The notes under the pieces are model-generated. The model was not told the DNA's origin, did not search any database, and was given only the letters and a program-made list of their open reading frames with translations. A stretch of DNA of 37,233 bases from Bacteroidota bacterium. GTDB taxonomy: Bacteria > Bacteroidota > Bacteroidia > M30B66. A program made the position numbers and the translations under genes. The stretch lies in the NCBI GenBank assembly GCA_027490225.1, contig JAIXYK010000033.1, positions 1 through 37,233 on the forward strand, read 5' to 3'. Positions 31,567-34,266 of the stretch are shown here, piece by piece; position 1 is the stretch's first letter, and each line of letters starts with the position of its first letter.

Positions 31567-31986
31567 TCAACCTAATTTCTTCACAGCGTTTGCAATACTT
31601 AACTCTACATAAACAAGTGCAACTATTATTGCTATTTCTAAGAAAAAATAAGCCACTCCAAGTTTAGTCAGTTCGTTGAAATAAGTGTATAAAAGCACCA
31701 ACGTTAAAACACAATATATCAAGTTGGCAATACTTATTGCTCTTATATAAGGTGTCCAATTTCCTTTGAGTAAAAAGAGGCATGTGGCAGAATAAACACA
31801 GAAAACAAGCGCGACTATTGAAAGGTTTGTCAAAATATGTTTAGGCATTCCAAAATAGTCTTGGTAATTTCTCAAAACAACAAACAAGAAAAAAGTGGTG
31901 GCTGCTGCACCTAAACTGTCTGCAAGGAAAAGCGTTTTAGGTTTTTTCGAAAGTTGGTTAATTAGATTTTTCATTGCAATAATCAT
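31567..31986 (-). CDS. Small four-helix membrane protein of unknown function
   Basis: The 139-residue product has no signal peptide. It has four predicted membrane helices, about 20-38 (GAAATTFFLFVVL), 52-73 (SIVALVFCVYSATCLFLL), 81-103 (IRAISIANLIYCVLTLVLL) and 108-132 (LGVAYFFLEIAIIVALVYV). The start could also be the Met four codons later (31974). I do not recognise a characterised family. It stands alone, with 271 upstream bases (31296-31566 on its 3' side) and 145 bases on its 5' side in which I see no gene. Confidence 0.75.
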   Translation of the reverse strand: MIIAMKNLINQLSKKPKTLFLADSLGAAATTFFLFVVLRNYQDYFGMPKHILTNLSIVALVFCVYSATCLFLLKGNWTPYIRAISIANLIYCVLTLVLLYTYFNELTKLGVAYFFLEIAIIVALVYVELSIANAVKKLG

Positions 31987-32131: not shown

Positions 32132-32545
32132 TCAATTTGTTTCCGTATATTTTTTATAGTTATTAAGTATTGCTTGCCACCCGTCTCGCTGCATTTCAAT
32201 GGGGTTTTCATTTTCCGGGTCAAAGATTACTGTTACTTCTGTTTGCTTACCTAAATCATTAAATAGCACAGTTACTTCTCTTCCCCAAAGTCCATAGCTA
32301 AAACTTTTAAACTTTGTAATTTCAGTGTAAGTAGCTTCAAAATCGAACCCAAAACTGCCGTCTTTAGCTTCCATTCTTGCTTTATATGTTCCACCAATTT
32401 GCATGTCGTTTTCAGCCTTCGGACAATGCCAGCTTGGGTCAGCAAAATTCCAATTTATAATGTGCTCCGGTAGTGTATAGCAGTCCCAAGCTTTTTCTAA
32501 AACCGCCGAAACATTTGCCTGAATTGTTATTTTATCTAGTTCTAT
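32132..32545 (-). CDS. SRPBCC/AHSA1-family protein lacking a canonical start codon
   Basis: The usual call would be the internal ATG at 32404 (90 residues), but the same frame is open and clearly coding for 51 codons further upstream. It reads ELDKITIQANVSAVLEKAWD, then PEHIINWNFADPSWHCPKAEND. These are the conserved first third of AHSA1-like START-fold proteins, so the full product is about 137 residues, the normal family length. No ATG, GTG or TTG exists in that extension. Homologues begin one or two residues before the position where this sequence has ATA (32543-32545), with ATC at 32549-32551 as an alternative. It follows the DUF1801 gene by seven bases. The conserved fold binds hydrophobic ligands. 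Confidence 0.75.
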   Translation of the reverse strand: MELDKITIQANVSAVLEKAWDCYTLPEHIINWNFADPSWHCPKAENDMQIGGTYKARMEAKDGSFGFDFEATYTEITKFKSFSYGLWGREVTVLFNDLGKQTEVTVIFDPENENPIEMQRDGWQAILNNYKKYTETN

Positions 32546-32552
32546 TTTGATT

Positions 32553-32945
32553 TTATTTTAATCGTTCAAGTTGACCTTTTCTTTTAACTATGTTTTTATA
32601 ATCCCATTGAATATCTATTGATTTTTTCAACCAACGTTTCAAACTTTCGGCATCAATGTCTGAAACGTTGTTGTAAAAAATAGATGCGTCTTTAAACTTC
32701 TCGCCCCTTACATTTAAATTCTCTTCTTCAAAGTCAGCGCCGCTCCAAAACATCAAACGCAAGCCAGCCTTTTGTTTGCTATAACCAACTATTGGGTTGC
32801 CATCTAAAAACCAAACAGGGTGCGCATGCCATATTTTACTTTCTGCTAAAGTTAGTTCGTTGTCAATTGTATGCGCAAGAAAGTTGCAAATAGCCTTGTC
32901 TTCAGAAGTCTGTTTGACATTATACGTTATAATTTCTTGATTCAT
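32553..32945 (-). CDS. DUF1801 domain-containing protein (YdhG-like)
   Basis: The 130-residue cytoplasmic protein matches DUF1801: the central motif ESKIWHAHPVWFLDGNPIVG, then GLRLMFWSGADFEE and a basic C-terminus. The family adopts a YdhG-like fold with no established reaction. DUF1801 genes often neighbour SRPBCC genes in Bacteroidota, as here, where the SRPBCC gene starts within about ten bases after the stop codon. The two are probably co-transcribed. Confidence 0.9.
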   Translation of the reverse strand: MNQEIITYNVKQTSEDKAICNFLAHTIDNELTLAESKIWHAHPVWFLDGNPIVGYSKQKAGLRLMFWSGADFEEENLNVRGEKFKDASIFYNNVSDIDAESLKRWLKKSIDIQWDYKNIVKRKGQLERLK

Positions 32946-33159: not shown

Positions 33160-34266
33160 CTATTGTTGTGATACAATCCATTTTAATAGCTCAATATTTT
33201 TTGTCCTTTTACAAACCTTATGCATTGAGTAGTATGTTTCTTTGCTATAATATTTTTTAAGCAACGCACATTTTATACTGTTGTCGAGTCGAGAATAGCC
33301 GATAGCCCAAATCATGCTTACTTTTAGATGTACAGATAGGTTTTCGTAAAAATCTTTTTTCAACGCTTCAAAATCTGGAATACTAACTGGATATTCTTTT
33401 GATGAATCTAATACAACACCATAAGGTCTTTGAGACAACTTCAATTCAGGGTCTGGCAAATCGACTTTTTCTTCGTAAAAAGTCCTTTCAATAATATTAT
33501 AACGAGTTCTCTTGGGCAAGTATTCGCCCATCTCTTTTTCAATAATTTTATTAGCGACAATTTCATCATCATAATTTTGAATTGCTTGTAAATCGCAATT
33601 ATTTAAATACTCAAAATCATCAATCAATATTTGTTGGTCTATTTCAAAACCAGGTTCCTGGTCAATTATCCAGCTGATAAGTTCGGGTCTGCGACTCCTG
33701 AATAGGTTATGCTGAAAATTACTTTTTGCCCAATTGCTAATTATTACTGATTTTACCGGATAACGCAAAACCCTGTTCACGATCAATTCAGATTCCGAAA
33801 AGTTAGCGCAAAGCCACGCTTCTTCTAGTGGTGTTAGCGCAATGTTTATCAAAACATTGTTGCATAGTTTTCTTGCTTCTACAAGTTGTTTGTTGCTAAT
33901 GTAACCCTTCTCCTCAAACGTTTTTTTGAATAAATCAAAAAGTAGCATGCTAGTTTCTAATGAAATTTCAAAATTAGGTTTGGTGTTTCTCCGATAAAAA
34001 TCTTTGGTTGTGCCTTGCTGGGTAATATGATAATACTGCTTTATTTTTTGCAATAACGAAAGTCGGCTAATTCTTTTTTCTGATTTCCATAAATCATTTG
34101 CAAGCTTTACCAGATTCTTAAAAAAGATGGGATTGAACTGAAAATAACTAAGATAATCTCTGACTTTTAGAAAATCAGCATAGGATACAATCGAATCGTC
34201 CTGTGGATAAGGATGCTCCAATTCTACAATGGTTCGCTGTAATGCTATTTTTCTTTGTTTATCCAT
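33160..34266 (-). CDS. Hypothetical cytoplasmic protein, no recognised family
   Basis: The 368-residue protein has no signal peptide or membrane helix. It is predicted mostly helical, polar and rich in Lys, Glu, Tyr and Phe. Visible segments include SYADFLKVRDYLSYFQFNP near the N-terminus, basic RRNTKPNF (about 95), TPLEEAWLCANFSESELIVN (about 147-166) and EKEMGEYLPKRTRYN (about 240). The C-terminus (CALLKKYYSKETYYSMHKVC, then IELLKWIVSQQ) looks like paired helices as in HEAT-type repeats. I could not place any catalytic motif. It is a single gene flanked by AT-rich gaps of 214 and 144 bases in which I see nothing further. Confidence 0.7.
   Translation of the reverse strand: MDKQRKIALQRTIVELEHPYPQDDSIVSYADFLKVRDYLSYFQFNPIFFKNLVKLANDLWKSEKRISRLSLLQKIKQYYHITQQGTTKDFYRRNTKPNFEISLETSMLLFDLFKKTFEEKGYISNKQLVEARKLCNNVLINIALTPLEEAWLCANFSESELIVNRVLRYPVKSVIISNWAKSNFQHNLFRSRRPELISWIIDQEPGFEIDQQILIDDFEYLNNCDLQAIQNYDDEIVANKIIEKEMGEYLPKRTRYNIIERTFYEEKVDLPDPELKLSQRPYGVVLDSSKEYPVSIPDFEALKKDFYENLSVHLKVSMIWAIGYSRLDNSIKCALLKKYYSKETYYSMHKVCKRTKNIELLKWIVSQQ

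Follow-up and report, generated by a model that had tools for sequence, protein, structure and literature searches.

ATA at the probable start position of an intact AHSA1/SRPBCC gene beside DUF1801 in a Bacteroidota genome

In a draft genome of the M30B66 lineage of Bacteroidota, a complete and well-conserved gene of the AHSA1/SRPBCC family carries ATA where its homologues usually carry ATG, and comparison with these homologues strongly supports the view that this codon occupies the homologous start position. The gene lies on the minus strand of the window, the whole stretch of 37,233 nucleotides that was analysed (assembly GCA_027490225.1, contig JAIXYK010000033.1). We give a slightly better than even chance to the explanation that ATG became ATA through the change of one base and that AUA still serves as a start at reduced strength, possibly aided by the neighbouring DUF1801 gene. 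Standard gene callers, which accept ATG, GTG and TTG, would instead begin at the internal ATG and give a product of 90 residues, which, as the original prediction rightly held, is short of a third of the domain, namely the first.

The reading frame and its start position

The AHSA1 frame extends on the minus strand from 32557 to 32135, with 141 open codons downstream of an in-frame TAA (32558-32560) that forms its upstream bound, and no internal stop or frameshift was found in these 141 codons. Taken from the ATA (32543-32545), the coding sequence occupies 32132-32545 and comprises 137 codons followed by the stop TGA (32134-32132). The first canonical in-frame start is an internal ATG at 32402-32404, Met48 counting from ATA, which is preceded by 51 codons (32557-32405) without ATG, GTG or TTG. 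Upstream on the same strand, a DUF1801 gene with an ATG start (32553-32945; PF08818, E 1e-7) ends in a TAA at 32555-32553, 7 nt from the ATA. Both the coordinates of the start-less lead and this distance had been given correctly in the original prediction.

The lead was compared with those of other genes over 429 kb of this genome (the window and 20 further stretches, an 11% sample), where a non-overlapping gene set of 328 non-terminal gene-like ORFs was screened. It was the longest lead before a first canonical start among the 328 ORFs, and the next real genes had leads of at most 33 codons, with upstream translations that looked non-coding. Since 12% of the 51-codon windows within long ORFs of the genome are also devoid of ATG, GTG and TTG, a start-less stretch of this length is not rare in itself, and the oddity lies in the presence of a conserved N-terminus and of the start position inside it. 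One case in 328 genes of an 11% sample points to an isolated case and not to a habit of the genome.

With regard to the start position, 86 homologous frames with N-termini were compared, taking as codon 1 the first after the TAA, so that the ATA is codon 5. An ATG is present at codon 5 in 31 of the 86 homologues, which makes it the commonest start position, and in 65 it is found exactly there or no more than two codons away, in line with the earlier claim that homologues start close to 32543-32545. Other ATG starts are located at codon 4 (n=10), codon 6 (n=13) and codon 7 (n=11), and the remainder at codons 1-3 or 8-9. ATG is the codon used by each of the 84 homologues that start in this region. 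The only two without a nearby ATG, L033 and L059, are SRPBCC-SRPBCC tandem proteins that need no start there; the AHSA1 homologue forms the second half of each, the open frames being 312 and 299 codons long, respectively. In a further protein, L016, the orthologous domain comes first and is followed by another SRPBCC-like domain.

The nearest homologue (L028, 71% identity) reads AACAAAATGAGC where the window reads ATCAAAATAGAA; codon by codon, the comparison is AAC AAA ATG AGC AAC TCA AAA ATT ACA GTT CAA versus ATC AAA ATA GAA CTA GAT AAA ATA ACA ATT CAG. Searches at family and order level covered 10 genomes, and a phylum search of 400 genomes yielded no closer homologue; the nearest ones, with 68-72% identity, carry ATG. 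As regards other codons, an ATC start, which had also been entertained originally, is not favoured (ATC at 32551; 2 of the 86 homologues start at that codon), and CTA at 32539 was also weighed and either discarded or given a low rank.

The full frame matches the AHSA1 family (PF08327) with 57.3 bits (E 2.4e-15, profile positions 3-124 of 125; curated cut-off 22.1), whereas from the internal ATG the score is only 29.9 bits and the match begins at profile position 32. This difference, together with the alignment with AHSA1 homologues, bears out the proposal that the lead encodes the conserved N-terminal third. Furthermore, the structure PDB 2l8o matches residues 4-137 of the ATA-started protein (E 1.1e-36). 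Among the columns conserved in at least 90% of the other proteins, none of 36 is lost, which places the protein in the best class among 82 proteins, and at 80% conservation it deviates at one of 47 columns. With a length of 0.225, its terminal branch falls in the middle of the range for 16 homologues and shows no acceleration; that of DUF1801 (0.144) is mid-range or shorter. Signs of a pseudogene, namely further disabling changes and relaxed constraint, were looked for in the AHSA1 gene and none was seen. By these sequence measures the gene is complete and well conserved and is not decaying. A frame that is both intact and constrained implies that the gene is still in use or that its start changed very recently.

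Initiation context and the DUF1801 neighbour

Ribosome profiling in Flavobacterium johnsoniae indicates that an A at positions 0, -3, -6, -12 and -13 favours translation, Bacteroidota being without Shine-Dalgarno signals (PMC6847099). The ATA at 32545 has A at all five of these positions, and the region from -30 to +20 is unfolded (MFE -0.4 kcal/mol). The 20 nt upstream of it (ACGATTAAAATAAAATCAAA, 32546-32565, minus strand) are A-rich and unstructured, and an extended Shine-Dalgarno of the S. aureus type was sought in them and is absent. Around the internal ATG at 32404, positions -3, -12 and -13 are all G and the region is folded (-5.1 kcal/mol).

Translational coupling typically involves overlaps of -4 or -1 nt, tight coupling as a rule requiring an overlap or a very short gap, and is almost gone by about 20 nt in tested pairs (PMC10666635); the gap of +7 nt between DUF1801 and AHSA1 is longer than these overlaps. 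The same gene pair, with a gap of 5 nt, is present in genome G258 (L089), where the junction reads AAAATGGAA versus AAAATAGAA in the window, and the junctions of both pairs (TAAATAAAATGGAA versus TAAAATCAAAATAGAA) are nearly the same. Identity between the two AHSA1 proteins is only 56%, however, and the likeness of the junctions is due in part to A-richness and to conservation of the DUF1801 end. Adjacent DUF1801 and AHSA1 genes on the same strand appear again in other families of the class (L089, L078 and L087, separated by 5, about 160 and about 85 nt), and in L035 the two genes lie on opposite strands, 1.4 kb apart. The repeated neighbourhood hints at a functional link; a literature search for AHSA1/SRPBCC together with DUF1801 found nothing. 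Two minus-strand ORFs beside the gene pair, at 33160-34266 (368 aa) and 31567-31986 (139 aa), have no Pfam or NCBIfam match.

Origin of the ATA and rival explanations

Three readings had been offered originally, a rare non-canonical start, a recent point mutation and a sequencing error, and of these the best support is for an origin by a single change from ATG to ATA. We infer that an ordinary AHSA1/SRPBCC gene underwent a single substitution of G by A at 32543 (as read on the minus strand) and that initiation persists at the resulting AUA, which in its A-rich unstructured leader would still bind the initiator tRNA. The full 137-residue protein would then still be produced, beginning with Met as residue 1, but in a fraction of the former amount, and reinitiation by ribosomes that have terminated on DUF1801, 7 nt upstream, may add to the local supply. 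Against a working AUA stands the fact that the AUA and AUU starts of S. aureus and the infC ATA have a Shine-Dalgarno sequence and the AHSA1 ATA has none. A peptide starting (M)ELDK, or one spanning ITIQANVSAVLEK, would mark the long form. Should AUA initiate translation here without a Shine-Dalgarno, the gene would be a simple natural experiment on the tolerance of the A-rich Bacteroidota signal for weak starts; should it not, the gene is a snapshot of gene loss via a single start-codon change. We consider it improbable that the AUA is a maintained attenuating start, served without Shine-Dalgarno pairing by the A-rich leader and by ribosomes from DUF1801 termination, with IF3 setting the yield, the IF3 gene of the family itself appearing to start with AUA.

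A very recent null mutation would give the same sequence picture as weak use of AUA. The sequence facts are identical if the gene is a recent start-loss pseudogene, in which the same change has effectively switched translation off and the frame is too young to have decayed, and we regard this as a minor but appreciable possibility. The assembly holds two further AHSA1-family genes (contigs C33 and C56 of G000) and the gene is missing from many relatives, so that it looks dispensable. On the other side, the 141 codons show neither stop, frameshift nor loss of a conserved column and the branch is not accelerated, so a start loss, if real, must be very recent; moreover, AUA is a weak start and not a dead one (PMC13009471). 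A base-call, consensus or strain-mixture artefact, with ATG in the organism itself, seems rather unlikely. The assembly is a draft of 66 contigs, and a lone anomaly of one base in a gene that is perfect elsewhere, in a region where all 84 homologues with a start have ATG, resembles an error, but no further sign of error was found nearby, the DUF1801 and AHSA1 frames are both intact, and one such case in 328 sampled genes indicates an assembly that is not error-ridden.

The remaining explanations dispense with a start at the ATA. A 90-residue protein from the ATG at 32404 is very improbable as the true product: although this ATG is the first canonical in-frame start and would be picked by standard start calling, the shorter form loses the conserved N-terminal third, including the invariant W20, W32, W39 and N46, and with it about half of the PF08327 score (30 versus 57 bits). 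The context of this ATG is poor, folded and with G at -3, and Met48 is an internal residue in homologues, within the conserved core motif N-D-[ML]-x-x-G-G. A +1 ribosomal frameshift where DUF1801 stops would yield a DUF1801-AHSA1 fusion and render a start codon needless, and the AHSA1 frame is indeed +1 to DUF1801 and open back past its stop, at an A-rich site (TTA AAA TAA A). Nevertheless, it is scarcely credible, since no such fusion occurs among the homologues, the start-less L033 and L059 being SRPBCC-SRPBCC tandems, and since the gap of 5 nt in G258 does not keep the frame relation; no known +1 stimulator was recognised at the site.

Comparison with known AUA starts and AHSA1-like proteins

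An AUA start, described as very rare in the original prediction, is less exotic than that, as such starts are known in S. aureus (PMC13009471) and infC of the family studied here seems to have one. In S. aureus, AUA starts are found in infC, ccpN and citZ; in poor medium, non-canonical starts reach about 10% of the AUG level, and in rich medium the ccpN AUA reaches up to 30%, and extended Shine-Dalgarno motifs have been described for infC, cvfC1 and ccpN (PMC13009471). In three genomes of the same family as the source genome (G003, G008 and G004; loci L175, L182 and L185), infC has only ATA, each time in the same position, and no canonical start, after a GGAG/GGAGG-type sequence, and the source genome's own infC (L094, G000:C43) has the same ATA and an ATG two codons later. 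At the class level, 18 of 30 infC loci are without a canonical start near the conserved motif. Judged from these sequences, infC in this family appears to have an AUA start, which makes AUA initiation plausible in the lineage, though with a Shine-Dalgarno that AHSA1 lacks. A second infC in genome G006 (G006:C31:841-1347, L156), at 260.7 bits far above any other, possibly lies on a contaminant contig.

At the protein level, the AHSA1-like SRPBCC structures PDB 2l8o, 2lcg and 2lgh resemble the window protein in a sequence match along the full length from residue 4, and the gene differs from the AHSA1-like SRPBCC homologues surveyed, which start with ATG, by its ATA. With the AUU or AUA of infC (encoding IF3) it shares a non-canonical AUN start; however, the infC ATA recurs across genomes with a GGAG-type sequence upstream, whereas the AHSA1 ATA is a single case among ATG homologues. 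The S. aureus genes infC, ccpN and citZ are alike in that each is otherwise ordinary and has AUA at its conserved start position. Their starts were mapped by ribosome profiling and have, at least in infC and ccpN, an extended Shine-Dalgarno, in contrast to the AHSA1 ATA, which was recognised by sequence comparison and is without one. Finally, the citZ AUA is confined to one strain lineage of S. aureus, and may parallel the AHSA1 ATA as a lineage-specific case.
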